Below, piece after piece: positions 1-23,340 of a stretch of 64,000 nt of DNA. Source of the DNA: Diplonema papillatum (lineage: Eukaryota; Euglenozoa; Diplonemea; Diplonemida; Diplonemidae); NCBI GenBank assembly GCA_030068145.1, contig JAPJBO010000192.1:236414-300413 (forward strand), written 5' to 3'. A program made the position numbers and the translations under genes. Each line of letters begins with the position of its first letter. Position 1 is the stretch's first letter. The notes under the pieces were generated by a model, which searched no databases, had not been told where the DNA came from, and saw only the letters and a list, made by a program, of their open reading frames with translations.

Positions 1-622
1 GAAGGATTGGTAGGACGCAGCGTAGCCCGGGACGTCTCGCGCGACGCGGTTCAGGTAGCGGGAAAGGTTCGGGTACGAGTCGAACACCAGCGGGTCCACG
101 AGCTTCAGCTGGTCGACCTCTGCAGTGAACAAAAAGTCTGCCACCGACAGCGAGTTGCCGACGATGAAGTCCTGGCGCCCGAGTCGGGCGTCGAACTCCG
201 CGAGCCAAGGCCGCACGGCGGCGATGCCGGTCGCCCGGCGGGAGTCTCGCTCGGACAGGGACCGAGCGGTGACCCACGGCCAGAAGCAGTCCTCGGTCAG
301 CTTCCGCGCCTCCTTCGCGTGCTTCCGGAAGTACTCGTGCAGCTTCGCCGCCCGGGCCGGGCCGACCTGCTGCACGCTGTGGTCGCGGCCGAGGTACTCC
401 GCGATCGCCGACGGCTGGCTCAAAAACAGGTCCCCGTCCTCGAGCGTCGGCACCGCGCCGTCCGGGTGAGCCCGGGACAGGTAGTCCGGCCTCCGGTGCT
501 CGTCGAGCCACAGGTCGCTGTCTTTGACCGCCAGCGGCTGGCGCGTGTACTCGGCCAGCCACCGGCACGCCCGCGACGGTTGCGACAGCGGGTGTGTCTT
601 GAGGACCGGCGTCGTCGAACCG
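1..622 (-). CDS. Giant GST-like gene, exon 3 (unit 14, partial at window edge)
   Basis: The reverse strand from 622 is open for 207 codons and encodes a complete-looking fourteenth GST-like unit: KTHPLSQPSRACRW, then VPTLEDGDLFLSQPSAIAEYL, DCFWPW, SLSVADFLF and FDSYPNLSRYL. It has no ATG at its beginning and starts exactly after an acceptor GGTACAG|CGG. Joining the AG left by exon 2 to the first C gives a Ser codon and keeps the frame between units. It could instead be the last exon of a separate GST-like gene. It runs off the window, so the true C terminus is unseen. Confidence 0.7.
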
Positions 623-3600
623 CTGTACCGTGAAGTGTGTCTGTACGAGCATTTGAGTGCAAAAGTGTGCACGGTGGAGTCCAGCCTCAGAAGAGAAAGG
701 TGGAGCCGCTGTAACTGCAGAGAGTATGAGGGTATGCGGAAGTGTGTCTGTACGAGCATTTGAGTGCAAAAGTGTGCACGGTGGAGTCCAGCCTCAGAAG
801 AGAAAGGTGGAGCCGCTGTAACTGCAGAGAGTATGAGGGTATGCGGAAGTGTGTGTGTACAAGCATTTGAGTGCAAAAGTGTGCACGGTGGAGTCCAGCC
901 TCAGAAGAGAAAGGTGGAGCCGCTGTAACTGCAGAGAGTATGAGGGTATGCGGAAGTGTGTGTGTACAAGCATTTGAGTGCAAAAGTGTGCACGGTGGAG
1001 TCCAGCCTCAGAAGAGAAAGGTGGAGCCGCTGTACCTGCAGAGAGTATGAGGGTATGCGGAGGTGTGTGAATACTAGCATTTGAGTGCAAAAGTGTGCAC
1101 GGTGGAGTCCAGCCTCAGAAGAGAAAGGTGAAGCCGCTGTACCTGCAGAGAGTATGAGGGTATGCGGAGGTGTGTGAATACTAGCATTTGAGTGCAAAAG
1201 TGTGCACGGTGGAGTCCAGCCTCAGAAGAGAAAGGTGGAGCCGCTGTAACTGCAGAGAGTATGAGGGTATGCGGAAGTGTGTGAATACGAGCATTTGAGT
1301 GCAAAAGTGTGCACGGTGGAGTCCAGCCTCAGAAGAGAAAGCTGGAGCCGCTGTACCTGCAGAGAATACGAGGGTATGCGGAAGTGTGTGTGTGAGTACG
1401 AGCCGATGAGGCTGGGGTTCAAATGCGCCCGCCACACTGAACCCAGATTTACCTGTGGTTCGTGGATGCGGCACATTTACCTCCGTTGAGACTGGAATAT
1501 TGTTGCGATAGCGGGGAGTCATGCGGCATGCTGATGAGTACCACATTATTTTGCGTATTACTTACAAAGCAGGTGGTTATGCAAAAAATACTAGGCCGCG
1601 CAAACAGCGCCTCGAACTGACCGAGCAGCGGCCGCACCGCCGCGACGCCCGCCGCAAGAGATATTCGATGAAGGGAAACAGGGAGTGTAAGACTCCACGG
1701 GTAGGATATAGGGGACTAGTCCTCTTTCCTACAGTTTAAGTTCGCTTAGGAACCCGGGGGTTAAAGCTTCCGTGTGACTATTGGCGAATGGAATCCTCTA
1801 TCGTATACTAGTATGCGTATCGTATCTGCAGTCGTGGCAGTACGAAAGCTTGTGTTGGTTACCTATTGCCGACTATTCGACTAGCTTTAGAGCGCATGTG
1901 GTTGTTGTGTTTCCACTTGAGAATGTAAGTTCGTGAAGGCAGACCTGCGGGGGGATGAGTACGCGCTGCGGGGCGCCAGCGTCGCGTCGAGGGAGCGGAC
2001 CGCGGCGGCGAGCGACTCGTGCGACGCTGCGTAGTCGGGGATCTCGCGGGAGATCCGGCCGAGGTACCGCGCGATGTTCGGGTACGCGTCGAAGACCGAC
2101 GGGTCGACACACTGCAGCTGCCCAACCTCCGGCGCGAACAGGAAGTCAGCCAGGGAAAGCGAGCCACCGGGCAAGACGTAGTCCTGCCGCGCAAACAGCG
2201 CCTCGAACTGACCGAGCAGCGGCCGGACAGCCGCGAGCCCCGCCGCCCGCCGCTCGTCGCGCTGGTCGTGGGTCTTCGAAGCGAGCCACGGCGCGAAGCA
2301 GTCGGTCGTGAACCGGCGCGCCTCCTTCTCGTGCTTCCGGAAGTACTCCCGCAGCTTCGCCTTGCCGCCAGCCCGCTCGGGTAGGATGGGATGGTTCTGC
2401 GCCAGGTACTCGAGAATCGCGGGGGCTTGCCCGAGGTAGAAGTCGCCTTCCTCCAGCGTCGGCACGCCGCCTTCCGGGTGACGCGCGAGGTATCCCGGCA
2501 GCCGGTCGTCTCCCGCCCACACGTCGACGGTCTTGATCGCGACGTTCTTGTTCGCGTACTTGATGAACCACCGGCACGAGCGGGACGGCTGCGAGACGGG
2601 GTGGCTGTTCAACGTCGGCACCACCGCCGGCCTCCGTGGCGGCATCGTGCCGTCCAACGACCGGACGAAGTCCCCCAACGCCGCGTATGACGCTGCGAAA
2701 CCTGGTATGTCCCTCGCGACTCGGTTCAAGTATCTAGCGATGTTCGGGAATGAGTCAAACAAAGCGGGCTCCATGTACTTCAGCTGGTCGACCTCCGGAG
2801 CGAACAGGAAGTCGGCGAGCGTCAGCGAGCTCCCGACGATGTAGTCCTGCATGCTCAGCTTGTCGTCGAATCTTTGCAGCAGCGCGCGAACGGAGGAGAG
2901 CCCCCTTGACTTCGCCTCGTCCCGTTCTTCCCACGTTTTCGCCGTGATCCACGGCCAGAAGCAGTCGGTGGTGAACCGTCTCGCCTCGACGCCGTGGCCC
3001 TGGAAGTATTCCTGCAGCCTCGCCCGCTCACTGGGGGTCTGCGGGGCGATCGGGTGTGTCTTCGCAACGTGTTCGAGGATCAAAGAAGGCTCGCTCAGGT
3101 ACAATGAGGCGTCCTCAAGGGTAGGCACAGCACCGTCGGGGTACCTGCTGAGGTAGTCTGGTCGGCGGTGTTCCTGAGCCCACAGGTCGATGTTTCGGAG
3201 TTTGACCGGCTTCTGCGTGTAGTTGACCAACAAACGGCAGGACCTTGACGGCTGCGACGCGGGGTGGACGTTCAGCGTCGGGATCGATCGGCGGGGGGGC
3301 AATGCACTATCCAACGCACGGATGGCGTCGCCCAATCCATCGTAGCATGCCGTGTATCCGGGTGCTTCGCGAGCGATTCTACCAAGGTACCTAGCGATGT
3401 TCGGGAATGAGTCAAACAAAGCGGGCTCCATGTACTTCAGCTGATCGACCTCCGGAGCGAACAGGAAGTCAGCCAGCGACAGCGAGGTACCGACGATGTA
3501 GTCCTGCATGCTCAGCTTGTCGTCGAATCTTTGCAGCAGCGCGCGAACGGAGGAGAGCCCCCTTGACTTCGCCTCGTCCCGTTCTTCCCACGTTTTTGAC

Positions 3601-6600
3601 GTGATCCACGGCCAGAAGCAGTCGGTGGTGAACCGTCTCGCCTCGACGCCGTGGCCCTGGAAGTATTCCTGCAGCCTCGCCCGCTCACTGGGGGTCTGAG
3701 GAGCGATTGGATGGTTCTTCGCAACGTGTTCGAGGATCAAGGGTGGCTCACTCAGATACAAAGAGGCGTCCTCAAGGGTAGGCACAGCACCGTCGGGGTA
3801 CCTGCTGAGGTAGTCGGGGCGGCGGTGCTCCTGAGCCCACAGATCGATGTTTCGAATTTTGACCGGCTTCTGCGTGTAGTCGACCAGCCACCGGCACGAT
3901 CTTGACGGCTGCGACGCGGGATGAACGTTCAGCGTCGGGGTCGTTCGGCGGGGGGGCAATGCACTATCCAACGCACGGATGGCGTCGCCCAATCCATCGT
4001 AGCATGCCGTGTATCCGGGTGCTTCGCGAGCGATTCTACCGAGATATCTAGCGATGTTCGGGAATGAGTCAAACAAAGAGGGTTCCATGTACTTCAGCTG
4101 GTCGACCTCCGGAGCGAACAGGAAGTCAGCCAGCGACAGCGAGGTACCGACGATGTAGTCCTGCATGCTCAGCTTGTCGTCGAATCTTTGCAGCAGCGCG
4201 CGAACGGAGGAGAGCCCCCTTGACTTCGCCTCGTCCCGTTCTTCCCACGTTTTTGACGTGATCCACGGCCAGAAGCAGTCGGTGGTGAACCGTCTCGCCT
4301 CGACGCCGTGGCCTTGGAAGTATTCCTGCAGCCTCGCCCGCTCACTGGGGGTCTGGGGAGCGATCGGATGGTTCTTCGCAACGTGTTCAAGGATCAAGGG
4401 TGGCTCGCTCAGATACAAAGAGGCGTCCTCAAGGGTGGGCACAGCACCGTCAGGGTACCTGCTGAGGTAGTCTGGTCGGCGGTGTTCCTGAGCCCACAGG
4501 TCGATGTTTCGGATTTTGACCGGCTTCTGCGTGTAGTCGACCAGCCACCGGCACGATCTCGACGGCTGCGACGCGGGGTGGACGTTCAGCGTCGGGGTCG
4601 TTCGGCGGGGGGGCAATGCACTATCCAACGCACGGATGGCGTCGCCCAATCCATCGTAGCATGCCGTGTATCCGGGTGCTTCGCGAGCGATTCTACCAAG
4701 GTACCTAGCGATGTTCGGGAACGAGTCAAACAAAGCGGGTTCCATGTACTTCAGCTGATCAACCTCCGGAGCGAACAGGAAGTCAGCCAGCGACAGCGAG
4801 GTACCGACGATGTAGTCCTGCATGCTCAGCTTGTCGTCGAACCTTTGCAGCAGCGCGCGAACGGAGGAGAGCCCCCTTGACTTCGCCTCGTCCCGTTCTT
4901 CCCACGTTTTTGACGTGATCCACGGCCAGAAGCAGTCGGTGGTAAACCGTCTCGCCTCGACGCCGTGGCCCTGGAAGTATTCCTGCAGCCTCGCCCGCTC
5001 ACTGGGGGTCTGGGGAGCGATCGGATGGTTCTTCGCAACGTGTTCGAGGATCAAGGGTGGCTCACTCAGATACAAAGAGGCGTCCTCAAGGGTAGGCACA
5101 GCACCGTCGGGGTACCTGCTGAGGTAGTCGGGGCGGCGGTGCTCCTGAGCCCACAGATCGATGTTTCGAATTTTGACCGGCTTCTGCGTGTAGTCGACCA
5201 GCCACCGGCACGATCTTGACGGCTGCGACGCGGGATGAACGTTCAGCGTCGGGGTCGTTCGGCGGGGGGGCAATGCACTATCCAACGCACGGATGGCGTC
5301 GCCCAATCCATCGTAGCATGCCGTGTATCCGGGTGCTTCGCGAGCGATTCTACCGAGATATCTAGCGATGTTCGGGAATGAGTCAAACAAAGAGGGTTCC
5401 ATGTACTTCAGCTGGTCGACCTCCGGAGCGAACAGGAAGTCAGCCAGCGACAGCGAGGTACCGACGATGTAGTCCTGCATGCTCAGCTTGTCGTCGAATC
5501 TTTGCAGCAGCGCGCGAACGGAGGAGAGCCCCCTTGACTTCGCCTCGTCCCGTTCTTCCCACGTTTTTGACGTGATCCACGGCCAGAAGCAGTCGGTGGT
5601 GAACCGTCTCGCCTCGACGCCGTGGCCTTGGAAGTATTCCTGCAGCCTCGCCCGCTCACTGGGGGTCTGGGGAGCGATCGGATGGTTCTTCGCAACGTGT
5701 TCAAGGATCAAGGGTGGCTCGCTCAGATACAAAGAGGCGTCCTCAAGGGTAGGCACAGCACCGTCAGGGTACCTGCTGAGGTAGTCTGGTCGGCGGTGCT
5801 CCTGAGCCCACAGGTCGATGTTTCGGATTTTGACCGGCTTCTGCGTGTAGTCGACCAGCCACCGGCACGATCTCGACGGCTGCGACGCGGGGTGGACGTT
5901 CAGCGTCGGGGTCGTTCGGCGGGGGGGCAATGCACTATCCAACGCACGGATGGCGTCGCCCAATCCATCGTAGCAAGCCGTGTATCCGGGTGCTTCGCGA
6001 GCGATTCTACCAAGGTACCTAGCGATGTTCGGGAATGAGTCAAACAAAGCGGGCTCCATGTACTTCAGCTGATCGACCTCTGGAGCGAACAGGAAGTCAG
6101 CCAGCGACAGCGAGGTACCGACGATGTAGTCCTGCATGCTCAGCTTGTCGTCGAATCTTTGCAGCAGCGCGCGAACGGAGGAGAGCCCCCTTGACTTCGC
6201 CTCGTCCCGTTCTTCCCACGTTTTCGCCGTGATCCACGGCCAGAAGCAGTCGGTGGTGAACCGTCTCGCCTCCACGCCGTGGCCCTGGAAGTATTCCTGC
6301 AGCCTCGCCCGCTCACCGGGGGTCTGCGGGGCGATTGGATGGTTCTCCGCGACGTGCTCGAGGATCGCCGGAGGGTCGCTGAGGTGCAAGGCTGCTTCCT
6401 CAAGCGTAGGCACAGCACCGTCGGGGTACCTGCTGAGGTAGTCCGGCCGGCGGTGCTCCTGGGCCCAGAGGTCGATGTTCCGGATTTTGACCGGCTTCTG
6501 CGTGTAGTCGACCAGCCACCGGCACGATCTCGACGGCTGCGACGCGGGGTGGACGTTGAGGGTGGGGATCGTGCGACGAGGAGGCAACGTCCCGTCTACA

Positions 6601-9600
6601 GAGCGGACGGCGTCGCTCAACGATTCGAAGCACGCTGTGTACCCAGGCGCGTCGTGGGTGACCCTGTTGAGGTAACGCTCGATGTTCGGGTACGAGTCGA
6701 AGACGTGGGGGTCCATGTGCTTCAATTGGTCGACTTCCGTCGCGAATAAGAAGTCGGCCAAGCTCAAGGAATGCCCCAGCACGTAGTTCTGCCTCTCGAG
6801 GAGAGAGTCATACTTCCCGAGCAGCGGCCGGGCGGCGCGGAGCCCCGACGCCGCCGCATCGTCGCGCGCTTCCCACGTCTTCGCCGTGATCCACGGCCAG
6901 AAGCAGTCGGTCGTGAAGGACCGCGCGTCCCGCGCATGCGTCCGGTAGTACTCCTTCAACTCGCCCGCCGCCGCCGGGCTGGTCGGAAGGATCGCGTGGT
7001 CCGCCGCGAGATACTCCAAGATCGCGGACGCCTGCCCGATGCGCAAAGCGGCGTCCTCCAGCACCGGCACGTCGCTGTCCGGGTGCCTCGATAGGTACTC
7101 CGGCCGCCTGTGCTCGTGCGTCCAGAGGTCGACGTTTCTAACGTTGACGCTCTTCCGCGCGTAGTCAGTAAACCAACGGCAGGCCCGCGACGGTTGCGAA
7201 AGGGGGTGGCTGTGCAGGGTGGGCGTGGATCTTCTCGGGGGAAGCCGGCTGTCAACGAGTCGGATGGCATCGCGGAGGGACTCGAAATTGGCGGCGTAGC
7301 CCGGGACTTCTCGGGAGATCCGGGCCAGGTAGCGGGAGAGGCTCGGGTAGGAGTCGAGCACCGTCGGGTCGACGCACTGGAGCTGGTCCAATTCGGGGGC
7401 GAACAGGAAGTCGGCCAGGGTGAGGGTGCTGCCGAGGATGTAGTCCTGCCGCGCGAGCACCGACTCGAACGTCGCGAGCAGCGGCCGCACGGCGGCGATG
7501 CCCGACGCCTTCCGCGCGTCCCTCTCCTCCCACGTGCCGGCCGCGAGCCACGGCCAGAAGCAGTCGTCGGTGAACCGCTTCGCGTCGGCCCGGTGCGTCC
7601 GGAAGTACTCCTGCAACGCAGCGGCTTGCGACGGGGTGGCCGGCGCGATCGGGTGGTTCCGCGCGAGGTGCTCCAGGATCGGCGGGCCTTGGCTCAGGAA
7701 CAGCTCGTCCTGCTCCAGCGTCGGGATCGAATCCGGGCGTCGTGCGAGGTATTCAACTCTCCTGTTTTTTACAGTGAAAGTTCGCTTGAAACTAAGGGGT
7801 TTTAGTGCTAAAGTCTTGTAAAGATGCTTTTTTTTGTGTTTCCGGCAATAATCGCAAAGTCGGTTGCCTACGACGGCGGTCTTTCTGATTGTTGTTCAGA
7901 GTACCGTATTAGGTCGGTGGTATAGAATCGCAGCTGATCTGCTGCGTGGACCTGCAATTGCAGTGTAGGGTTGATATGGACTCGAACGTCGCGAGCAGCG
8001 GCCGCACGGCGGCGACGCCCGACGCCTCCGCGCGTCCCTCTCCTCCCACGTGCCGGCCGCGAGCCACGGCCAGAAGCAGTCGTCGGTGAACCGCTTCGCG
8101 TCGGCCCGGTGCGTCCGGAAGTACTCCTGCAGCGCAGCGGCTTGCGACGGGGTGGCCGGCGCGATCGGGTGGTCCCGCGCGAGGTGCTCCAGGATCGGCG
8201 GGCCTTGGCTCAGGAACAGCTCGTCCTGCTCCAGCGTCGGGATCGAATCCGGGCGTCGTGCGAGGTATTCAACTCTCCTGTTTTTTACAGTGAAAGTTCG
8301 CTTGAAACTAAGGGGTTTTAGTGCTAAAGTCTTGTAAAGATGCTTTTTTTTGTGTTTCCGGCAATAATCGCAAAGTCGGTTGCCTACGACGGCGGTCTTT
8401 CTGATTGTTGTTCAGAGTACCGTATTAGGTCGGTGGTATAGAATCGCAGCTGATCTGCTGCGTGGACCTGCAATTGCAGTGTAGGGTTGATATGGACTCG
8501 AACGTCGCGAGCAGCGGCCGCACGGCGGCGACGCCCGACGCCTCCGCGCGTCCCTCTCCTCCCACGTGCCGGCCGCGAGCCACGGCCAGAAGCAGTCGTC
8601 GGTGAACCGCTTCGCGTCGGCCCGGTGCGTCCGGAAGTACTCCTGCAGCGCAGCGGCTTGCGACGGGGTGGCCGGCGCGATCGGGTGGTCCCGCGCGAGG
8701 TGCTCCAGGATCGGCGGGCCTTGGCTCAGGAACAGCTCGTCCTGCTCCAGCGTCGGGATCGAATCCGGGCGTCGTGCGAGGTATTCAACTCTCCTGTTTT
8801 TTACAGTGAAAGTTCGCTTGAAACTAAGGGGTTTTAGTGCTAAAGTCTTGTAAAGATGCTTTTTTTTGTGTTTCCGGCAATAATCGCAAAGTCGGTTGCC
8901 TACGACGGCGGTCTTTCTGATTGTTGTTCAGAGTACCGTATTAGGTCGGTGGTATAGAATCGCAGCTGATCTGCTGCGTGGACCTGCAATTGCAGTGTAG
9001 GGTTGATATGGACTCGAACGTCGCGAGCAGCGGCCGCACGGCGGCGACGCCCGACGCCTCCGCGCGTCCCTCTCCTCCCACGTGCCGGCCGCGAGCCACG
9101 GCCAGAAGCAGTCGTCGGTGAACCGCTTCGCGTCGGCCCGGTGCGTCCGGAAGTACTCCTGCAGCGCAGCGGCTTGCGACGGGGTGGCCGGCGCGATCGG
9201 GTGGTCCCGCGCGAGGTGCTCCAGGATCGGCGGGCCTTGGCTCAGGAACAACTCGTCCTGCTCCAGCGTCGGGATCGAATCCGGGCGTCGTGCGAGGTAT
9301 TCAACTCTCCTGTTTTTTACAGTGAAAGTTCGCTTGAAACTCAGAGGTTTTAGTGCTAAAGTCTTGTAAAGATGCTTTTTTTTGTGTTTCCGGCAATAAT
9401 CGCAAAGTCGGTTGCCTACGACGGCGGTCTTTCTGATTGTTGTTCAGAGTACCGCACTAGGTCGGTGGTTAGAATCGCAGCTGATCTGCTGCGTGGACCT
9501 GCAATTGCAGTGTAGGGTTGATATGGACTCGAACGTCGCGAGCAGCGGCCGCACGACGGCGACGCCCGACGCCAACGCGCGTCCCTCTCCTCCCAAGTGC

Positions 9601-12600
9601 CGGCCCGTGCGAGGTATTCAACACTCCTGTTTATTTAGAGTGCAAGTTTGCTCGAAACTCAGGGGTTTTAGTGTTGGAATCGCAAAGTCGGTTGCCTATG
9701 ACGGCGTTCTTTCTGATTGTTGTTCAGAGTACCGTATTAGGTCGGTGGTATAGAATCGCAGCTGATCTGCTGCGTGGACCTGCAATTGCAGTGTAGGGTT
9801 GATATGGACTCGAACGTCGCGAGCAGCGGCCGCACGGCGGCGACGCCCGACGCCACCGCGCGTCCCTCTCCTCCCACGTGCCGGCCGCGAGCCACGGCCA
9901 GAAGCAGAGATTGTTTTTGGACTAGATAATAGTGCGGAGCAAGCTTCTTTCCCCCTGCCAAAATGCATAGGGGGTGGGCGTCGGCCTTCAGGCCAGTAGG
10001 CCCGGGTTCGAACCCCGCCCATCACACTTTTCCGGTCGAAGATTGTTTTCGAGGTTTGTTGCGTTCCGGGGTCTAATGTGCCCGAAATTTGCGTTTTTTG
10101 CGGAGGTTTTCAGTATCTCGCGGTATTTGGGTCACCCCGGGAAACGGAGTCGGGGGGGGGTCCGGGGGGGTCTCCCGGGTACTGGCGCCGAACTTGCCAT
10201 TACAGGCCAAACTTGCTACCACACGCCGAACTCAGCATCACCAGACCCGAACTTTGCTTCGCCCGAACTTAGCTTTGCCGAACTTTGCTTCACCAGAACT
10301 TAGCATCGCCCGAACTTAGCATCACTCGAACTTAGCGTCGTCCGAACTGAGCTTCACCAGAACTTAGCATCGCCCGAACTTAGCTTCACCCGAACTTTAA
10401 CTGCTGCCTCCAGTCTCGCCACGCGCCGGCCGTAGCCGAGCGCACGTACTTGTGTTTCCGGCAACAATCGCAAAGTCGGTTGCCTATGACGGCGTTCTTT
10501 TTGATTGTTGTTCAGAGTACTATGTTAGGTTGGTGGCATAGAATCGCAGCTGATCTCATCAGGGGAGAAACAATACAACTACAAAGAGGGTAAACACAGG
10601 CACACCCAGAGTTACCTGTGATTCACCTCCTTTGAGATTTCGAAACTGGCACCTCCTCAGTATTTCCCACAAAGCACGTGCTTAAAAAATACTCGAACGA
10701 CTGCCTTGTGCTCATTTCGAAGGAGGCCATAGGGGGAGAAAAATACAACCTCAAAGTGGGTCTTTTTGTTGAACGCTTCCGCCCGCCACTAAACTCAGAT
10801 TTACCTGTGTTTCGTGTGGGCTACAGCACATCTACCTCCTTTGATCTTGGTATTGTTGCGATAGTGGGGAGTCATCGGCATGCCGATGAGTACCACACTA
10901 TGCCTGCCTTTCGCTACGTGACACCGGATGGGTCACTCTTCCGTCGTGGTGCCCGCGACGGCTGCTGCTGGTAGCTTGTGACAAGTTCGTCGTCAGATCC
11001 GGAATGGGAGTCCTCCTTTGATTCTTCGTAACTGGCAGCCTCCTCAAGCATTTCATACAAAAAGGCAGGTGCTTATACAACAAAAAATACAGAGAGAGAG
11101 AGAGAGTTGTAAATACCTGTGGTCCTGCGCCCAGAGGTCGACAGTGCGGTTGGTGACGTTTTTCCGAGCGTAGCTGGCTAGCAGCAGGCAGGACCGAGAC
11201 TCCTGGGAGACGGGGCTCGTGTTCAGCACGGGGACCGACGCGACGACGCGGCGGGCGGGCAGGGTGCGATCAACGGCGCTCACGGCCTCGGTCAGCGAGT
11301 CGAGCTGGGCGGCGTACCCGGGGACTTCGCGGGCGATGCGGCTTAGGTACCGCGCGATGTTCGGGTAGGAGTCGAAGACGTTCGGGTCGACAAGCCGCAG
11401 CTGGTCTACCTCCGGGGCGAAGTGGAAGTCCGCAAGCGTCAGGGTGCCCCCCAGCACGTACTCCCTACGTTCCAAGAGCTGGTCGAAGGAGAGCAGCAGG
11501 TCCCTCACGGACGCGATGCCCGTCCGCTTCCGTTCGTCCCGCTCGTCCCACGTCCTCGACGTGATCCACGGCCAGAAGCACTCGTTCGTAAACCGCCTCG
11601 CCTGCTTCGGATGCTTCCTGAAGTACTCGTGCAGCCTTGCTTTGACTCCTGGGTTCGTTGGTAAGATCGCGTGGTCCTTCGCGAGGTACTCGAGGATCGC
11701 GGGCGTCTCGCCTAGGAACAAGTCGTCGTGCTCGAGCGTAGGCACCGCGCCCTCCGGGTGCTTGGCGAGGTAGTCCGGGCGGCGGTGCTCGTCGGCCCAG
11801 AGGTCGACGTGCCGGCAGTTGACGCCGAGCCTCGCGAAGTCGGAGAACCAGCGGCACGAGCGCGATCCCTGCGAAATCGGGTGCGTGTTCAGCACCGGCG
11901 TCGAGACCACACGGCGCGGCGGCAGCGTGCGGTCCACAGCACGCACGGCGTCTCCCAGGGAGTCAAAGGACGCAGTATACCCGGGGGCTTCCCTGGCGAC
12001 ACGGGCTAGGTACCGCTCGATATTTGGGTACGGGCCGAGCACCAGCGGGTCCATGTACTTCAGCTGGTCGACCTCCGGCGCGAACAGGAAGTCAGCGAGC
12101 GATAGCGAGCCGCCCAGGATGAAGTCCTGGCGAGCCAGCACATCGTCGAACCGGCCCAGCAGCCCCCGCACGGCGGTCAACCCGGCGGCCTTCCGCTCGT
12201 CCCTGTCCTCCCACGTCCTCGAGAGGATCCACGGCGAGAAGCAGTCTGTCGAGAACCGCCGCGCCTCCCGGACGTGCTGTCTGAAGTACTCCCGCAGCGC
12301 GGTCTCATGGCTGGTGGTTGGGGGGTGCAGGTAGTGGTCGGCCGAGAGCTTCTCGAGGATCGCGGAGGCTTCGCGGAAAACCAGCCCGTCGTCGTCTAGT
12401 GTGGGGACCACAGCGTCGGGGTGGGTCACGAGGTAGTCCGGCCTGTGGTGGTCTAGCGCGAGGGCATCGGCCGGGCGGATGGTCACGTCCTTCTTCGCGA
12501 AGTCGGCGAACCACCGGCAGGCCCGCGACGGCTGCGAGATCGGGTGCGTCCGCAGCACCGGCGGCGGCCGCCGCCGCGGCGGCTCCCGGATCACGATCGG

Positions 12601-14799
12601 CGACAGCGGCGGCTCGGGCTCCCCCATCGCGCGCACGGCGCGCTCGAGGGCGTCGTACACTTTTGTGTACCCTGGCACGTCGCGTGCGAGGCGGTTCAAG
12701 TAGCGGGCGATGTTCGGGAACGAATCGAACACCGTCGGGTCCATGATCCGCAGCTGGTCGACTTCCGGGGCAAACAGGAAGTCAGCCAGCGTCAGCGAAT
12801 TGCCGAGCACAAAATCCTGCCGCGCGAGGAGATCGTCGAACTGCAAAAGCAACGGCCGCACCTGCGCGAGGCCGTTGGTCTTCGCGCTCGCTCTTGTGTC
12901 GTACGTCCGCGCGACCAGCCACGGCCAGAAGCACTCGGTCGTGAACCGGCGCGCCTCCTTCGCGTGCTTCCTGAAGTACTCGTGCAGCTTCGCACGGCGC
13001 CGCGCGTCCCGCGGCAGGATCGCGTGGTTGTGCGACAAAAACTCGAGGATCGCGGCGCTCTCGCCGAAGTACACGTCGCCGTCCTCCAGCGTCGGCACCA
13101 GCCCGTCTGGGTGCCGCGCGAGGTACGTCGACCTCCGGTGCTCGTCAGCGAAGATGTCGACCGTGCGCACCGATGCCGGCTCGCCCGTGTACTCGAGCAA
13201 CCACAGGCACGCTCTCGACGGCGAAGAGACGGGGTGCGTGTTGACCACCGGCACCGACCGCGGCCGCTCGACGGCCCGAGGAGGAGGCGGGGGAACAGGC
13301 ACCGGTAACGGCGTCGAGGGCGCGGCGTACGGGACTTCCGTCGCCGGGTGGGCCCGCAAAGCGGACCCGAGCCGGTCGAACGACTCCGCGTACGACGGCA
13401 CTTCCCTCGCGAACCTCCCCAGGTACCGGTCCACGTCCGGATGAGCGTCGAACACGTACGGATCCATGTACCGCAGCTGGTCGACCTCTGGGACGAGGAG
13501 GAAGTCGGCGAGAGTCAGCGAGTTTCCGACGGCGAAGTCCTGCCTCCGGAACTTGTCGTCGAACCGCGCGAGCAGCGGCCGGGCGGCAGCGAGCCCGGAG
13601 AGCCGCTTCGACTCGCGCTCGGAGGGGTGCGCGAGGAGCCACTTCGAGAAGCAGTTCTTCGTCAGCCGGCGCGCCTCGTGCATGTGCTTCCTGAAGTACT
13701 CGTGCAGGAGCGCCTTCTGCCGCGGCCCCTGCGGCTCCAAGTGGTGCCCCCTCGAGAGGTACTCGAGGATGGCCGGGCTTTCGCCGAGGAGCAAGTCGAC
13801 GTCTTCCAGCGTCGGCACAGCGCCGGATGGATGCTTCGCCAGGTAGTCCGGCCTCTTGTGCTCGTAGTTCAGCACGTCGATGAGGCGCAGGGAGCACGGC
13901 TTGCGGGAGTAGTTGATGAACAGCTCGCACCCCCGCGAGGGCTGCGAAAGCGGGTTCCAGTTCAACGCGGGGAGCGCCGAAGAACCGGGCGAAGGAGACG
14001 ACCGCACGATCGGCGGCAGCGGCGAAGACGTCGGCAGGCGGTAGTCCGCCGTCCGGTCCAGGCGTTCGATCGACGGGGAGTAGTCGAAGTACCCTCTTTG
14101 GGGAGACGAGACCGACACATACTCTTCGTGCGCTTGCTCCGTCTTCATTTCGTAAACTCGGTCGTCGCTCACGAAGACCTCCTCGTGCGGTGAAATGGGA
14201 CACAGGGGGATGTTGTGGATGGGTGATACAGTTGTCACCGTCATATACTGTGACGGGGCCGCGACAACCGACATCATCCTCGGGCCTCCGTATATCGGGG
14301 AGACCGACCGGATGGGGCTGGGAGTCCGCACCACGTTGTCGTATGGTAGATACGGCAGCGGGCGATTGAGGACGGGACTGCCTGAGCGGTGCAGAGGGGA
14401 TGACCTGCCGACGGACCCGCTTGATAACCGGCCGAGGTCGCCGGACATCATGGGGGTCACGTAGGTGGGGGTCCCGACCTGGGTGGCCGTGAGGCACACG
14501 TGGGCGCCGGGAGGGGGGTAGTGCGCCGCGTACTGCGCGGGGCTCGGCCCGCTGAACTCGCGCGAAAAGTCGCGCGGCCGCTGCGGCGAACCGCTGCCGC
14601 CCCGGTGAGGCGACGGGTAGCTCCGCAGCGGCAGCGGCGACGAGCCCGCGTTGGTCCGGGCCTCGTGCATGACCCGCTCCATGTACCCGGGGGGCAGCTG
14701 CTTTGTGGGGCTCTGCCCGCGCAGCGGCGAGTGGCGCAGATACGAGCCGACTTCCTCCTCGTACGACAGCCCTCGTCTGAGGCCGGAGGGACTTGACAT
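1..14799 (-). CDS. Giant tandem theta-GST-like polyprotein gene (3 exons seen, 3' end off window)
   Basis: Exons 14799-11117, 7761-1945 and 622-1 join in frame through two phase 2 introns to give 3,374 codons that are still open at the left edge. Residues 1 to about 275 are Ser/Pro/Arg-rich and probably disordered. After that come 14 units of about 219 residues. Each unit has a thioredoxin-like half with a theta-class motif of the form SQPSRxCRW, then VPTLED and an AILEYL-like motif. A helical half follows, with EARRFTTDCFWPW, SLxLADFLFAPEVDQL and FDSYPNIARYL. Theta-class GSTs use the Ser of such an N-terminal motif to activate glutathione, so this is probably a chain of GST folds. Whether it is an enzyme or a scaffold is unknown. 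GSTs are normally about 220-240 residues and single-unit, so this is exceptional. No signal peptide or membrane segment is visible. The exon structure is inferred from frame, homology continuity and splice sites, not from transcripts. Confidence 0.75.
632..1404. repeat. 107-bp minisatellite in intron 2 of the GST-like gene
   Basis: About seven full copies plus a partial one start at 632, 739, 846, 953, 1060, 1167 and 1274. The array lies in the intron 623-1944 and abuts the 3' splice site at 623. Several units contain CCGCTGTACC, the reverse complement of the GGTACAG|CGG acceptor used by exon 3, so the array carries copies of the splice junction. Short ORFs on both strands here are by-products of the repeat. 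Confidence 0.92.
1405..1940. repeat. Pieces of dispersed repeat families R2 and R4
   Basis: 1475-1590 matches family R2 (GAGACTGGAATATTGTTGCG, ending GGTTATGCAAAAAA), also seen near 10.9 and 36.97 kb. 1725-1930 matches family R4 (AGTTCGCTTAGGAACCCGG, CCTATTGCCGACTATTCGAC), also seen at 37.1, 41.9 and 44.6 kb. No gene other than the surrounding intron is supported. Confidence 0.7.
1590..1662 (-). pseudogene. Short fragment of a GST-like unit inside intron 2
   Basis: About 70 bp (CCGCGCAAACAGCGCCTCG and onward) nearly match positions 2187-2245 of exon 2, which encode the VRPLLGQFEALFARQ region of unit 13. The fragment is isolated, flanked by repeat sequence and cannot contribute a domain. Confidence 0.8.
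1945..7761 (-). CDS. Giant GST-like gene, exon 2 (units 5b-13)
   Basis: The acceptor AAAAACAG|GAGAGTTG at 7762 restores unit 5 as HRRVEYLARRPDSIPTLE, matching HRRPDYLSRYPDGAVPTLE in its neighbours. Units 6 to 13 follow, with starts near 7220, 6560, 5905, 5250, 4590, 3935, 3277 and 2615. Units 8-11 are almost identical to one another. Units 7-12 read DP or EP where theta GSTs have ES, units 5, 6 and 13 read QG, QA and QA, so glutathione binding may be weakened. The unit Cys in TDCFWPW is kept throughout. Without splicing the frame would end at 1887 after about 19 unrelated residues. The donor CCGCAG|GTCTGC at 1944 instead joins exon 3 in frame. Confidence 0.85.
2750..6700 (-). repeat. 657-bp coding tandem repeat with 1,314-bp higher-order period
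   Basis: Six units (7-12) repeat every 657 bp exactly, equal to 219 codons. Diagnostic bases alternate. Units 8 and 10 share GAGGGTTCC (Ser after MEP) and TCTGGTCGG. Units 9 and 11 share GCGGG (Ala) and TCGGGGCGG with CAGATCGATG. The alternation shows that a two-unit block of 1,314 bp was duplicated after the single units had diverged. Confidence 0.9.
7762..9920. repeat. 516-bp tandem array in intron 1 carrying copies of the exon 2 start
   Basis: Three near-identical units begin at 7971, 8487 and 9003 (period 516/515). Two degraded ones begin at 9518 and 9799. Each holds about 280 bp of the start of exon 2 (unit 5b up to about VRPLLATFES), its acceptor ACAG|GAGAG and about 240 bp of intron. 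Acceptor copies lie at 8278, 8794, 9310 and about 9627. A one-base deletion (CCTTCC to CCTCC) shifts the frame in the copies, so they cannot replace the real exon. The real acceptor is the one farthest from exon 1. Confidence 0.93.
9960..10025 (+). other. tRNA-like hairpin with T-arm but no D-arm
   Basis: GGGTTCGAACCC forms a canonical T-arm/B-box motif. GGTGGGCG and CGCCCATC can pair over 8 bp as an acceptor-like stem around it. The GGCCTTCAGGCC hairpin sits where an anticodon arm might be. No A box or D-arm is visible and the whole is too short for a tRNA, so a tRNA-derived fragment or SINE head is more likely than a working tRNA. Confidence 0.35.
10195..10402. repeat. Degenerate ~16-bp minisatellite (CCGAACTTAGC)
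   Basis: About a dozen imperfect copies of CCGAACTTAGCATCGC-like units lie in intron 1 of the GST-like gene. The stretch between the 516-bp array and this repeat (10026-10195) shows nothing recognisable. Confidence 0.8.
10600..11092 (+). repeat. Three pieces of dispersed family R2 in intron 1
   Basis: Segments at 10600-10690, 10757-10910 and 11010-11092 share CGCCCGCCACTAAAC, CTACAGCACAT, CTCCTTTGATC and a 3' end of the type GTGCTTATACAAAAA. The last piece ends about 20 bp from the exon 1 donor and is followed by a GA-dinucleotide run (11094-11106). 10403-10600 holds a copy of the CGGCAACAATCGCAAAGTCGG sequence also present in the 516-bp units. Confidence 0.75.
11117..14799 (-). CDS. Giant GST-like gene, exon 1 (N-terminal head and units 1-5a)
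   Basis: The ATG at 14799 opens a frame of 1,227 codons plus 2 nt. The head (residues 1-275) is rich in SP, RSP and PxP motifs. Unit starts lie near 13970, 13240, 12560, 11895 and 11235. Units 1 and 2 keep the Glu-Ser pair in GES(P/A)AILE that binds the gamma-glutamyl end of glutathione in theta GSTs. Unit 4 has ET, and unit 3 has EA. The exon stops inside unit 5 just after DLWAQDH at a donor reading CACAG|GTATTT (intron from 11116 down). Continuing past the donor gives only about 20 unrelated residues and a stop at 11053. The missing rest of unit 5 appears at 7761, which supports splicing. Confidence 0.85.
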
Positions 14800-17206: not shown

Positions 17207-17865
17207 ATGGTCAGGAAAGGCGTGATTGTCAGTGATGAAGTGTGCGATTCAGAAAGCACATCGTCCGAAGCAGAGTCGGACAGCTCGTCGACGGATGAGG
17301 AAGAGGTGAAGCCGAGAAAGTCCCCTTCCCGTGCGCAGAAACCTGAAAAGCAGACTGGGAAGCCTCAGCAGCCGGTAGATGGGTGGACAGAGGGTATGGG
17401 GCCTGTGGATGACTTCCTGAGAAAGTTGCCTGCGGACACCTTTCGCACGTGCACCGTCGTTGATTCCCTGGAGCAGTACGACGACCACCGAAGCAGGCGC
17501 GAATTCGGGTCCATACCCGGGGTGACACTGAGACTGAGAAACGAGCAGAAGGGGTGTGAATGCGCCTACATCGCGTTGTGGCGTGCACTTGCATGGCGAA
17601 CTACCGGAAAGACAGATCTCCCGACTAAGGCTGTCCTCCTCAACTTTGCAGAAGAGAACTTCCATGAGAAGAAAACGAGCGTGGGGAGCTTGAGGTCGCT
17701 GGATTGCTTTGAAGTTCAGCAGTTTTGCCACACGCATGGCATTGGATTCGTACTCTCGCCGGACTGCATGAAGACAATCCTGTATCGCCGTGTTACAGGA
17801 GACGCAACGCACAGGGAGGAGTACGAAGCACAGCGTCCCGTGAACATTGTTTTCCTCAATAGCGT
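17207..17865 (+). CDS. N-terminal ORF joined to a piggyBac remnant, function unrecognised
   Basis: The ATG at 17207 opens a frame that continues to 18040, but its last part is the wrong frame of the downstream transposase. The first 80 residues are acidic and Ser-rich, like the N-terminal tail of piggyBac transposases. The next part contains NEQKGCECAYIALWRALAW and HTHGIGFVLSP, which I do not recognise as the piggyBac catalytic domain. It could be an unrelated module captured by the element, or a badly decayed transposase. Confidence 0.45.
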
Positions 17866-18482
17866 ACATGGGCGGTGTCGACCTCAGCGACCAGCTCATG
17901 GCCAGTTGTGGCCGGCTCATGAAGGGTCGGAGGTGGTACCTGAAGCTTTTCTTCTACTTGTTGGAAGTTTCGTGCCTCAACGCATCTGTTATTTGGAAAC
18001 ATCTCCACAAAGACGATCTGCAGAGCTTTTCCTTCGCTAACTTCAAGCGTGCGCTTATTGCGGGGCTCCTGAACGCAGATCCTGCCGATGACAGCAGCAC
18101 AGAACCGGATGAGGTAAGTGCCGGCCCCGAACCCACGACTCCCACCAAATCGCAGCAGGACAGCGCACCGTCGACCCCATTCTCGCCAAGTACTCCGTCA
18201 CGTGCTGACGATCATCCGTGCCGGCTTGACGGTAAAACCCACTACCTTGTGCCCCTGGACCGCCGGACGACTTGCAAGTGCCACGTGCAGCGCAAGGACG
18301 TCCAATACATGTGCAAGCAGTGTGGTGTGCCATTGTGCCCTGCACCCTGCTTTGGGCGGTTTCACACCAAGCAGGACCACAAATTCGACGACCCGAACTT
18401 GAAGGACGCGCAGCGCCGACTCAAGGATCCCAACGGGCGCCCATTCAAGCGCGGGAGGAAGCGCAGTCTCCAGTCAAACAAC
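17866..18482 (+). pseudogene. piggyBac-like transposase, C-terminal remnant
   Basis: In the frame shifted from the upstream ORF, YMGGVDLSDQLMAS is the diagnostic piggyBac motif (YNxYMGGVDxxDQ) that carries a late catalytic Asp. RRWYLKLFFYLLEVSCLNA, the segment after the catalytic core in this family, follows. At 18220-18370 comes the C-terminal Cys-rich zinc-binding domain: CKCHVQRKDVQYMCKQCGVPLCPAPCFGRFH. The catalytic Asp residues expected upstream are absent and the frame breaks near 17865, so the element is dead. TTAA-flanked ends were not identified. Confidence 0.8.
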
Positions 18483-18825
18483 AGCCCTGCGCACAACGAG
18501 CGCAAGACCTGGCTGTGCTTGGATCGCCTTCTACTTTTTCGACGCGTAGGAGTGCAACCTCGCTACCAATTTCGTCTCTCTTCATACCTTCCGTGGCAGA
18601 GCTTATTCTTTCACTCTCATTCTTTCGTTAAGTTTCCAGGTGGCTGGCTGAGCAACGCCTGGCCAACCGGACACGATACTTTTGCGACGGCCCGGCCCCC
18701 CTGCACGCCGAACATGACATGAGTGCCTGATACAAGACCAGCACGAATGGGAGGCAGCGTCTTGAGCTCCGTTCTTAATTCTTTCGTTTCCCTCTTTTCC
18801 GTAGTTACATGGCACCTGACGGATT

Positions 18826-18906
18826 TGCTCGACAACCGGCCGAGGTCGCCGGACATCATGAGGGTCCCGACCTGGGTGGCCGTGAGGCACATGTGGGTGC
18901 CGGGCT
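18826..18906 (-). pseudogene. Decayed copy of the GST-like gene head (piece d)
   Basis: The reverse strand encodes HMCLTATQVGT, MMSGDLGRLSS, matching HVCLTATQVGT...MMSGDLGRLSS in the head of the giant protein (14400-14510) but lacking the residues between. It lies upstream of the gene in the same orientation. Confidence 0.85.
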
Positions 18907-18914
18907 TGCTGACA

Positions 18915-19009
18915 GTTTCAAGTCCGTTCCCTTGACTGCTGTTTCGCCAGATAGTAGGTAGGGACAGAAGGAATCTCATTGGTCCATTCATGCGCGTCTT
19001 TAACTAGAA

Positions 19010-19069
<60 letters not shown>

Positions 19070-19478
19070 ACCTGATCTCTCAGCGTTGACATTCAGGGCA
19101 CTGGGCAGAAGTCACATTCCACTTGCCACCGCTGTGATGAAGCGAAATGCTGTGGTTTAATTAACCAGTTGGATTCCTCTTGTTCGCAACAGTTCCAAGC
19201 TGACACTTCATTGCGGGCACAACATGCAAGAAGGCCTGGAAGAAATCAGGAGCCGCGGGTAGCACCCAAGAGCGCCACTCACAGCACCTTCAATCTGAGC
19301 CCAGACCTGACCCGCACTGACAATCCCGCATGTGTCCTCAGAGCCAATCCTTTTCCCGAAGTTACGGATCCAGTTTGCCGACTTCCCTTACCTATATGGT
19401 TCTGTCGGCCAGAGGCTTTTAGCCTAGGAGACCTATTGCGGTTAACGGTACGGCCCGATGCAAGAGAATGAGATCTCC
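18915..19478 (-). rRNA. Nuclear LSU (28S-type) rRNA fragment
   Basis: The reverse complement contains universally conserved cytosolic LSU rRNA sequence: GGATCCGTAACTTCGGGAAA, then GGTTAATTAAACCACAGCAT, TTCTGCCCAGTGCCCTGAAT, GGGTAAACGGCGGGAGTAAC, CTCTTAAGGTAGCCAAATGC and CGCGCATGAATGG. Their order matches the LSU gene. Only about 560 nt of a molecule over 3 kb is present, with differences from usual conserved positions (for example GACCAATGAGATTCC), so this is a partial and probably non-functional copy. Confidence 0.88.
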
Positions 19479-19524
19479 CCTATTTTTTCCATGCACATCC
19501 ACAAGACACCCTACACGAAGAAAC

Positions 19525-19810
19525 GCCGCGTACTGTGCGGGGCTCGGCCCGCTGAACTCGCGAGAAGTCGCGCGGCCTCTGCAGCGAACCGCCGCCGCCG
19601 CCGCGGCCCCGGTGAGGCGACGGGTAGCTCCGCAGCGGCAGCCGGCGACGAGCCCGCGTTGGGCCGGGCCTCGTGCATGACCCACTTCATGTACCCGGGG
19701 GGGGCAGCTGCTTCGTCGGGCTCTGCCCCCCGCAGCGGCGAGTGGCGCAGATACGAGCCGACTTCCTCCTCGTACGACAGCCCTCGTCTGAGGCCGGAGG
19801 GACTCGACAT
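19525..19810 (-). pseudogene. Decayed copy of the GST-like gene 5' end (piece a)
   Basis: The reverse strand starts MSSPSGLRRGLSYEEEVGSY as in the giant gene, then a frameshift gives GAEPDEAAAPPGYM in place of GQSPTKQLPPGYM. A second shift follows, and the copy fades after about 95 codons. An upstream R4 motif follows at 19820. Confidence 0.9.
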
Positions 19811-20130
19811 TTCCCCTTTTTAGAGTGAAAGTTCGCTTGAAACTCCAGGGTTTTTGTGTTTCCGACGATCCCGGATGGGCGTACAGATTGGATCTCTTTT
19901 TTCAAACTCTGTTTTTAATTAGGGTCTGCTAGAATGAAAGTTCGAAACGAACAGTTTTCTAGGAAAAGTAGGCGGTTTCAAGGCCCACCGGCCTTACCGG
20001 CGTCTGGTAGTTCTGATGATGGCTAGTCCACCTTCATAATCATCTCTTGAGCTCCATTCTTAATTATTCGTTTCCCTCTTTTCCGTAATTACGTGGCACC
20101 CAATTACTAGTGACAATCATTTGTAAATTC

Positions 20131-20285
20131 ACGAGCCCGCGTTGGTCCGGGCCTCGTGCATGACCCGCTTCATGTACCCGGGGGGGGCAGCTGCTTCGTC
20201 GGGCTCTGCCCCCCGCAGCGGCGAGTGGCGCAGATACGAGCCGACTTCCTCCTCGTACGACAGCCCTCGTCGAGGGACTCGACAT
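20131..20285 (-). pseudogene. Decayed copy of the GST-like gene 5' end (piece b)
   Basis: About 150 bp matching the first 50 codons of exon 1, with a deletion after the first codons (GAGGCCGGAGG missing) and the same G-run expansion as piece a. It is followed by the same R4-containing flank. Confidence 0.88.
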
Positions 20286-20485
20286 TTCCCCTTTCTAGAA
20301 TGAAAGTTCGCTTGAAACGAACAGTTTTCTAGGAGAAGTAGGCGGTTTCAAGGCCCACCGGCCTTACCGGCGTCTGGTAGTTCTGATGATGGCTAGTCCA
20401 CCTTCATGGTCATCTCTTGAGCTCCATTCTTAATTATTCGTTTCCCTCTTTTCCGTAATTACATGGGCACCCAATTACTAGTGAC

Positions 20486-20632
20486 AGTCCGGGCCTCGTG
20501 CATGACCCGCTTCATGTACCCGGGGGGGGCAGCTGCTTCGTCGGGCACTGCCCCCGCAGCGGCGAGTGGGGCAGATACGAGCCGACTTCCTCCTCGTACG
20601 ACAGCCCTCGTCTGAGGCCGGAGGGACTCGAC
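20486..20632 (-). pseudogene. Decayed copy of the GST-like gene 5' end (piece c)
   Basis: A third copy of about 150 bp with its own small indels, again followed by the R4-like flank (20640-20830). Pieces a-c look like tandem duplicates of a roughly 350-480 bp block (5' coding plus flank). Confidence 0.88.
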
Positions 20633-21065
20633 ATTTCCCCTTTCTAGAGTGAACGTTTGCTTGAAACTCCAGGGTTTTTGTGTTTCCGACGATTCCGGAT
20701 GGGCGTACAGATTGGATCTCTTTTTTCAAACTCTGTTTTTAATTAGGGTCTGCTAGAATGAAAGTTCGCTTGAAACGAACAGTTTTCTAGGAGAAGTAGG
20801 CGGTTTAAAGGCCCACCGGCCTTACCGGCGTCTGGTCCATCCCCTCTTGATAGACCGTGATAGACCGAAGAATACAGCACGGGCAATTCGATGCAGCACT
20901 AGGGATGGACCTGATAGACCGTGGTGGACCGTTGATGCTTTAGTTTGGGAAATCGGTAGCCACTTGACCCGTAGACCTGTGGCACTGCAGTACCGCAAAA
21001 AATCGAAAGGTAGAAAGGTCAGGCAGTGATTCTGACTCACAAATAGTAAATTAAAAGAGGGGGAA

Positions 21066-21352: not shown

Positions 21353-21756
21353 AAAAAAAAAAGGAGGGAAGGCCGTTTTTTCGACGGTACCCCTTTGTTC
21401 TGGGGAGAGAAGCAAAACGAGGGTGAGGTCGAACCTGCGCTTTCGGCGCAGGGGCAGGAGCTCACGCGGTCCACGTTGACACTCAGAAGGGAGGGGGAGG
21501 GACGTGCTGGGCACCAGCAGTGCGGCCTGTCTGTCTAACTCGTGCAGTCCAAAGCGTCGTGCTGGCTTGTCAAAAGACCAGACACTGTATGTGTGCGTGT
21601 GGGTGGAGATCTCGAAGCTTGGGGTGCAAGATTTCAAAAGAAATCTCTCGAATGCGCCGGTGGTTTCAGTAAGATTGGAACCAGAGGGGAGGGGGGCAGC
21701 ACGTTTCTGGCCCCTTCGTCGAGTGAGTACATCCGCCAATCCAGTGCAAAATCCGG

Positions 21757-22440
21757 GTGCGACACCCGGAAATCCGTGTGAATCCGTGACACCCGGAAAT
21801 CCAGTGTGAATCCGTGTGACACCCGGAAATCCAGTGTGAATCCGTGACACCCGGAAATCCAGTGTGAATCCGTGTGACACCCGGAAATCCAGTGTGAATC
21901 CGTGTGACACCCGGAAATCCAGTGTGAATCCGTGACACCCGGAAATCCAGTGTGAATCCGTGACACCCGGAAATCCAGTGTGAATCCGTGACACCGGAAA
22001 TCCAGTGTGAATCCGTGTGACACCCGGAAATCCAGTGTGAATCCGTGTGACACCCGGAAATCCAGTGTGAATCCGTGTGACACCCGGAAATCCAGTGTGA
22101 ATCCGTGTGACACCCGGAAATCCAGTGTGAATCCGTGTGACACCCGGAAATCCAGTGTGAATCCGTGTGACACCCGGAAATCCAGTGTGAATCCGTGTGA
22201 CACCCGGAAATCCAGTGTGAATCCGTGTGACACCCGGAAATCCAGTGTGAATCCGTGACACCCGGAAATCCAGTGTGAATCCGTGTGACACCCGGAAATC
22301 CAGTGTGAATCCGTGTGACACCCGGAAATCCAGTGTGAATCCGTGTGACACCCGGAAATCCAGTGTGAATCCGTGTGACACCCGGAAATCCAGTGTGAAT
22401 CCGTGTGACACCCAGAAATCCCGTGTGAAATCCAGTCAGG
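21757..22440. repeat. 30-bp minisatellite, copy A (about 22 units)
   Basis: Units read CCGGAAATCCAGTGTGAATC followed by CGTGTGACAC. Some are 28 bp, having lost GT. Because 30 is a multiple of 3 and the unit lacks stops in several frames, all reverse frames are open. The apparent 278-354 residue proteins here are artefacts. Confidence 0.96.
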
Positions 22441-22444
22441 ACAA

Positions 22445-23340
22445 CCCGTAAATACAGGTGATCCCACTGGATTTGGCGGGTACCCGCCAAAGTGGACCGC
22501 ACACAGTTTAACTCCCCCCCCGCTGGAACGCACCGTGTAGTTAGACAGCTGGCACCACCAAGGGAACGCGGGCGGGGGGGCAGGGCCCTCCCCTGCCAAT
22601 TTCCGACCTGCTGGGACGTCTCGGTTGTGTCAGGAACCAGCGTGGCGCATACCAGTTGCGGCTGTGCTCTTGAGAGTCGAGCCTGGCCAGCAACCTGACG
22701 CTACAACCCGGGGGGGGAAAATGTTTCTGGGGTTGGGGGGGGATGGGGAGGGAGAAGTATTGAGAAGAGCAAGGGGATGGAGTCTCTCAGTTCTGGTTTT
22801 TCTTAATGTCCAGGCAGAACTCTGCCCTTTCCCCGCACGTCGGCAGTGCTGGCCCATCAAGTCCACACATTGAGCCGGTCCATCCCCTCTTGATAGACCG
22901 TGATAGACCGAAGAATACAGCACGGGCAATTCAATGCAGCTCTAGGGACTAGGGATGGACCTGATAGACCGTGGTTGACCGTGATGCTGTGATCGATGCA
23001 GTTTCAAGAGATAGGGACCGACCGGATCACACATGATGAAATGACGCCCGGGGGTCAAAGCGGGGTACGCATTTCCTTTTAATTTGTGTTTCCGGCGAAT
23101 AATCGTTTTCTTTTCCTCTTTTTTGTCTAAGCAATCTTCCTGCCATCGTTTTTTTTTTTTTTTCTTCTAGTAAGTTCGCTTTGTAGGAAATGCTTGAGAA
23201 GACTGCCAGTTGCGATAGATCAAAGGAGGTAAATGTGCTGTAGCCCACACGAAACACAGGTAAATCTGGGTTTAGTGGCGGGCGTAAGCGTTCGACAAAT
23301 CTTTTTAGCATTTGCAAAGGAAGAGCACTAAGAAAGAACT
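22445..23340. other. Non-coding part of segment A with repeat pieces
   Basis: It contains a second GGTCCATCCCCTCTTGATAG block (22877-22990), a reverse-strand R2 piece (23165-23305) and long G and T runs. No frame shows a recognisable domain. Duplicated at 30781-31676. Confidence 0.5.

Follow-up and report, generated by a model that had tools for sequence, protein, structure and literature searches.

A predicted chain of fifteen glutathione S-transferase units in Diplonema papillatum, most of them with an altered glutathione pocket

Glutathione S-transferases (GSTs) are one-unit enzymes acting as dimers. What could a cell do with a single protein in which such units follow each other from one end of the chain to the other? 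The question is raised by a gene on the minus strand of a 64,000-nucleotide stretch of the Diplonema papillatum genome (the window; contig C192, JAPJBO010000192.1, positions 236414-300413), which an initial annotation, made from the letters alone, had described as a tandem run of theta-class GST-like units. The best explanation, which we put forward tentatively, is that this diplonemid nuclear gene encodes a protein of about 410 kDa, a chain with enzymatic ends and re-purposed inner units. The genome searched comprised 271.4 Mb in 2,910 contigs; the published D. papillatum assembly is reported at 280.3 Mb in 6,181 contigs (PMC10161547).

Joined on the minus strand, the three exons (Table 1) give exactly the 3,374 codons that the initial annotation had set as the minimum of its single reading path, with no stop. 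Both junctions are GT-AG and phase-matched, and GT-AG introns are reported as the large majority in D. papillatum (PMC10161547). A scan of the window with a unit profile built from 12 units located 14 units: four lie in exon 1, intron 1 divides the fifth, exon 2 contains a further eight and exon 3 a single one. The two pieces of unit 5 were found at 11098-11232 (its start) and 7224-7865 (the remainder, exon 2 beginning at 7761); rebuilt across the intron, the unit matches the profile over its full length. The earlier count of at least 14 tandem units was prudent, because a fifteenth unit and the stop codon (contig position 235655) lie just beyond the window. The complete predicted protein has 3,626 residues, a mass of 410.3 kDa and an isoelectric point of 7.1, and its 15 units appear as 15 nearly full-length matches to a profile made from 14 of these same units. 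The profile search that had been proposed as a check finds the Pfam families GST_N and GST_C above cut-off in all three exons, with four stretches of each in exon 1, and nine of GST_C and eight of GST_N in the exon-2 frame at 1887-7616. Three other families (PF21972, PF24927 and PF24422) exceeded the cut-off for exon 2 as a whole and in no single stretch, and we took them as summed weak matches to the repeat. A thioredoxin-like N-terminal domain together with an all-helical C-terminal domain is given as the mark of the GST superfamily (PMC4138524), and the giant protein has this architecture of the cytosolic GSTs. At the level of the sequence, the gene structure, the GST domains and the fifteen-unit make-up of the predicted protein are firmly established.

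The chain opens with the Ser/Pro-rich head of 275 residues that had been described before. Its [ST]P pairs number 21, where shuffling the same residues gives 8.5 +/- 2.4, and a Pfam search to E 0.1 finds no family in it; the six places in the genome that match the head are all on C192, either at the gene itself or immediately upstream. Most units are joined by short linkers. The repeat length of about 219 residues given earlier is exact in units 6-11 only, the period ranging from 211 to 244 across all 15. Cys15 and Cys107 (residue numbering here and below is that of unit 8) are invariant in the 14 window units; unit 15 keeps Cys15 alone.

To which class of GSTs do these units belong? Both motifs named in the earlier description are present: SQPSR is exact in 11 of the 14 window units and ADFLFAPEVDQL in eight, with close variants in the others, and SQPSR is described as typical of theta GSTs (PMC11925944). 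The best profile matches are insect delta enzymes, with human theta lower. In the structure matches of a two-unit model, all of which fall in its second half (unit 4), epsilon, Ure2p-like and theta proteins are tied. We therefore regard the units as theta/delta-like, theta itself being suggested by the motif and not proven. The GST fold that had been expected from structure prediction was found for unit 4, the one unit compared, as structure matches of low-confidence models.

The active site divides the chain. In the alignment with the structure 3vk9, residues Ser9, Val52, Glu64 and Ser65 fall on Ser11, Val54, Glu66 and Ser67 of bmGSTD, which belong to its glutathione site (PMC4954967). Ser9 and Pro53 are found in all 15 units, Val52 in 14, Glu64 in 10 and Ser65 in only three. 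SxxSRxC, the motif that contains the catalytic serine, does not vary among the 14 window units and occurs in unit 15 as well. Ser65 stands in units 1, 2 and 15, is replaced by Thr in unit 4 and by Pro, Ala or Gly in the remaining units, so that the core glutathione site (Ser, Val/Ile, Pro, Glu-Ser) is kept in three units and changed at Ser65 in 12. Elsewhere in the genome the Glu-Ser pair is common: it is found in 9 of 11 units of other GST frames (C9, C556, C95, C1338, C26, C191, units a and d on C101 and unit e on C948), among them all six single-unit frames. The difference between 3/15 and 9/11 gives a Fisher p of 0.004, or 0.03 when units 7-12 are counted as one; against the six single-unit frames the values are 0.0015 and 0.011, respectively. 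The 11-unit comparison excludes identical contig copies and a partial second copy in C556, as well as the GST_N_3 places on C377, C119, C106, C77, C71, C512, C168, C703, C13 and C53 and the first of those on C191. Across the genome, at least 41 GST_N_3 matches were counted, and the giant gene accounts for 14. That some units of the predicted protein carry the Glu-Ser pair and others do not is shown by the sequence.

Units 7-12 form a young array from which the history of the chain can be read. Silent changes outnumber replacement changes between units 8 and 9 (19:1), 10 and 11 (20:3), 7 and 8 (32:10) and 9 and 12 (53:31), and units 8-11 encode nearly identical proteins from DNA that is not identical. 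Searched against the genome, the DNA of unit 8 has near-identical copies only in this array, apart from short matches of 73-77% in C9. The gene has grown by repeated in-frame duplication, apparently including that of a two-unit block, since units 8 and 10 differ by 2 bases and units 9 and 11 by 9. Purifying selection has held the predicted amino-acid sequence of the young units. Averaged over the 15 pairs of units 7-12, which are not independent of each other, the proportions of replacement (pN) and silent (pS) differences are 0.023 and 0.279 in the glutathione-binding half (ratio 0.08), 0.022 and 0.132 in the helical half (0.17), and 0.096 and 0.252 in the tail and linker (0.38). Older pairs of units are near saturation at silent sites, with a ratio of replacement to silent rates (dN/dS) of 0.18-0.60. 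A pseudogene or a DNA repeat read by chance is ruled out by the excess of silent changes between young units and by the frameshifted copies in intron 1; these copies of the exon-2 start are not units themselves.

How might such a protein work? It would remain one long cytosolic chain of beads, in which units 1, 2 and 15, with the catalytic serine and the Glu-Ser pair, could act as GSTs. The 12 inner units, keeping the fold and the serine with a changed gamma-glutamyl pocket, might serve as low-activity, high-copy sites for a thiol or hydrophobic ligand, in the manner of a ligandin, and as spacers, and the head could be a phosphorylated tether or a regulator of the chain. Replacements are scarce in the altered pocket of units 7-12, which speaks for a changed role and not for simple decay; such scarcity is compatible with a binding or a structural role alike. 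The narrower proposal, that this is a homotypic chain of 15 GSTs whose inner 12 units were re-tooled under selection into a binding or structural module, leaving enzymatic units only near the ends, seems to us possible, though rather doubtful.

Several observations weigh against the reading of enzymatic ends and re-purposed inner units. The structure models are weak (mean predicted local distance difference test score, pLDDT, 59; predicted template modelling score, pTM, 0.58 for the single unit, whose N-domain is poor), and the model of two adjacent units yields no reliable packing at a pTM of 0.40. Equivalents of bmGSTD Gln51, His52 and Arg68 are absent from the aligned units 1-15 and from four free-standing paralogues, for which reason a complete site means here the Ser/Val/Pro/Glu-Ser core only. 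Nor is the giant gene alone in having lost Glu-Ser, since the pair is also missing from units b (degenerate) and c (Asp-Pro) of a three-unit frame on C101/C948. The lower ratio of the glutathione-binding half in units 7-12 is due to its higher pS, pN being equal in both halves, and among seven older units this half is slightly less conserved (pN 0.311 vs 0.269). In a tree of units and paralogues, to which no outside classes were added, one of 20 inner branches is well supported, and the tree is compatible with one origin of the 15 units or with several. We infer expression and splicing of the giant gene from its sequence, and the copy number of the near-identical block comes from one assembly. 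The donor of intron 2 is ambiguous, with a second in-phase GT site 18 bases earlier in exon 2; an in-frame TAA at 1887-1889 in this intron would end an unspliced product after 13 units; and the last two thirds of unit 15 recur as a truncated copy 3' of the stop, which makes an alternative 3' end possible. That copy (L027:8591-9241, C192:235004-235654) is open from about unit residue 62 to its own TAG; it may be a duplicated 3' end or an alternative terminus of the gene. Repeats adjoining genes can yield over-long gene models, as the genome paper warns (PMC10161547).

Some of these points favour a structural scaffold without a thiol ligand, in which the units would be a rigid repeat fold that spaces or tethers cell components. 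We consider it rather unlikely, yet the loss of Ser65 in 12 units and of Glu64 in five, the exact 219-residue period of units 6-11, the [ST]P-rich head and a glutathione-binding half conserved no better than the helical half, and slightly worse among the old units, all fit it well. It is harder to reconcile with the catalytic serine, which stands in its motif in every unit, and with the Glu-Ser pair of three units. At the opposite extreme, most or all units could be active with a shifted gamma-glutamyl contact, one transcript providing 15 active sites. This multi-site detoxification enzyme, one of the roles first considered, agrees with the ubiquity of Ser9 and Pro53 and with the rarity of replacement changes in the young N-halves, and a part in protection against oxidative stress is reported for the gene families whose expansion is confined to D. 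papillatum (PMC10161547). The altered glutathione pocket weakens it for 12 of the 15 units; the other two roles first considered, a thiol scaffold and a structural repeat protein, may still apply. Loss of the equivalent residues in the silkworm enzyme bmGSTu2, which has Gly for the catalytic Ser, is described as leaving insignificant diazinon activity in the mutants E66A and S67A (PMC4954967), and with Ser65 in just three units we find an enzyme of 15 working sites improbable.

Two further explanations concern the product itself. The chain might be a polyprotein, cut at its linkers into single GST units that then form the usual dimers. A P(P/A)RR motif in 11 of the 14 inter-unit tails, absent from the ends of the paralogues on C9, C556, C95 and C1338, would suit such cutting, but the tails of units 1, 13 and 14 are without it. 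The N-terminus (MSSPSGLRRGLSYEEE...), judged by eye and with no signal predictor run, has no hydrophobic stretch, so that cleavage at paired basic residues along the secretory pathway would not be expected; a polyprotein appears quite unlikely. Alternatively, the gene model might be over-long, the true products being shorter (13 units up to the TAA of intron 2, or exons 1 and 2 as separate genes) and part of the region debris. D. papillatum is said to repeat the 5' ends of genes next to them and to carry further copies of exon ends within introns or 3' untranslated regions (PMC10161547), and the giant gene has such copies on both flanks and in its first intron. Yet the intronic copies bear frameshifts and the flanking ones are truncated, whereas each of the 15 units is complete and keeps the phase, and silent changes dominate between the young ones. 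We hold an over-long model to be very unlikely, and even the shorter versions would contain 4, about 8.5 or 13 units.

Chains of two GST units are known (PMC11925944). In the open-access literature searched, we found no account of a GST chain as long as this one, in line with the initial remark that no protein of such make-up had been described, and no link between diplonemids and GSTs; the gene may well be unremarked in the published annotation. Diplonemids are described as flagellates common in the sea, with a biology of which little is known (PMC10161547). Should the preferred explanation, a selected chain of 15 GSTs with core active sites near its ends and altered, conserved inner sites, be true, it would be a natural experiment in the passage from enzyme to repeat protein, and would raise the question of what becomes of a dimeric fold whose partners are linked covalently in one chain. 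Because gene replacement is reported to work in D. papillatum (PMC10161547), the role of the protein is directly testable.

The closest systems for comparison are the theta/delta cytosolic GSTs (silkmoth bmGSTD 3vk9, human GSTT1-1 and T2-2), which are among the best sequence and fold matches of the units and share with them GST_N and GST_C, the serine at the start of helix 1 and a similar unit length. They carry one unit per chain, against 15 in the giant protein, 12 of which lack the Ser of the Glu-Ser pair. The trypanosomatid TDR1/Tc52 proteins are tandem double GSTs, TDR1 being omega-like; they, too, join several GST units in tandem, though two instead of 15. Within the same genome, a 685-residue open frame on C101 (L031:7289-9343) and C948 (L034) holds three tandem GSTs, the middle one strongly degenerate, and has additional GST exons next to it; the scores of the matches are the same on both contigs. 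Two of its three units have lost Glu-Ser, as in the giant gene, whose head is found on C192 alone. The free-standing paralogues on C9, C556, C95 and C1338 have one unit each, with SQPSR, SQPCR or SAPCR and 39-46% identity to the array units; all four keep Glu-Ser, and three end in ARGY, SRGW or ARGF. S-crystallins, the GST domains of tRNA-synthetase complexes and FzlA have a GST fold with catalysis reduced or absent; unlike the giant protein, they are not known to form one long homotypic chain. In prokaryote genomes and viral contigs no relative was confirmed by scans with one or two short peptide patterns each, which carry little weight. In three other GST frames (L034:1085-2215, L036:4707-5633 and L040:4233-5633), starts of the form MGCT or MGSC, resembling N-terminal acylation signals, precede a low-complexity head. 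A stray fragment close to the middle of unit 14 lies on another contig (L038:4649-4903, C863).

Table 1. Features of the giant GST gene and its flank, in window positions; residue pairs are those found at the place of Glu-Ser.
Feature	Positions	Strand	Remarks
Exon 1	11117-14799	-	head, units 1-4 and first 39 residues of unit 5 (codon 39 split); donor AG/GTATTT
Head	13975-14799	-	ATG (14799) and 275-residue Ser/Pro-rich region; open frame
GST unit 1	13312-13971	-	Glu-Ser pair kept
GST unit 2	12589-13251	-	Glu-Ser pair kept
GST unit 3	11899-12561	-	Glu-Ala
GST unit 4	11236-11898	-	Glu-Thr; structure modelled
Intron 1	7762-11116	-	3.36 kb; acceptor CAG/GAGAG; repeated frameshifted copies of its own end and the exon-2 start
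Exon 2	1945-7761	-	remainder of unit 5 (Gln-Gly), then units 6-13; donor AG/GTCTGC
GST unit 6	6567-7223	-	Gln-Ala
Young array, units 7-12	2619-6566	-	Asp-Pro in unit 7, Glu-Pro in units 8-12
Units 7, 8, 9	5910-6566, 5253-5909, 4596-5252	-	
Units 10, 11, 12	3939-4595, 3282-3938, 2619-3281	-	
GST unit 13	1953-2618	-	Gln-Ala; His38 replaced by Asp
Intron 2	623-1944	-	1.3 kb; acceptor TACAG/CGG; 107-bp tandem repeat, 7.1 copies; weak GST fragment
Exon 3, window part	1-622	-	unit 14; continues beyond the window through unit 15 to TAG
GST unit 14	1-609	-	Gln-Pro
Truncated copies of the gene's 5' end	19524-20634	-	upstream, outside the protein

The surroundings of the gene fit the genome it comes from. 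The element ACAGTTTCTGTACTWTATTG, which we take to be the second, 3'-terminal half of the spliced leader of diplonemids and kinetoplastids, has 328 + 296 matches in the genome and 0 + 0 when read backwards; those listed are all of the ACTTTATTG form. An origin in a dinoflagellate was rejected, a spliced-leader search of the window having given a single 12-base match with two mismatches. Besides the repeated gene and exon ends, about 3,600 scattered pieces of 28S ribosomal RNA (rRNA) are reported for D. papillatum (PMC10161547), and all three oddities are found in the window, as copies of the head, frameshifted exon-2 starts and a 28S fragment. In the decoy exons of intron 1 (7762-9960), a 516-bp stretch of the intron end and the exon-2 start is repeated, every copy having its own acceptor and a frameshift; the further acceptors lie at 8277, 8793 and 9309, spaced 516 bp. 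The weak GST fragment of intron 2 was found at 1557-1706 (E 0.02, profile search). Upstream of the gene, 18700-20700 holds three truncated copies of its 5' end, and a piece of 28S rRNA (18918-19404) lies at the interruption of the head sequence in the nearest of them. A recurring element resembling TTTCAAGCGAACTTTCACT often precedes the acceptors of intron 1 and the ATG copies of the head (minus strand at 7791-9657, 14908, 19842-20775 and 41912; plus strand at 10384); it has 12 matches with at most 4 mismatches, against none in 20 one-strand shuffles, many of them in duplicated stretches and hence not independent.

Further along the window, a weak remnant of a piggyBac-type transposase lies at 17847-18722 (PF13843 and PF13842, both below cut-off). 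A duplication of 5.7 kb, with 99.6% identity, occupies 21729-27426 and 30060-35760, and in or beside it a 30-bp minisatellite of 22.9 and 66.9 copies is open in several frames. At 46326-47618 there is a gene resembling that of mitochondrial ribosomal protein L47 (Pfam PF06984, E 1.6e-16).

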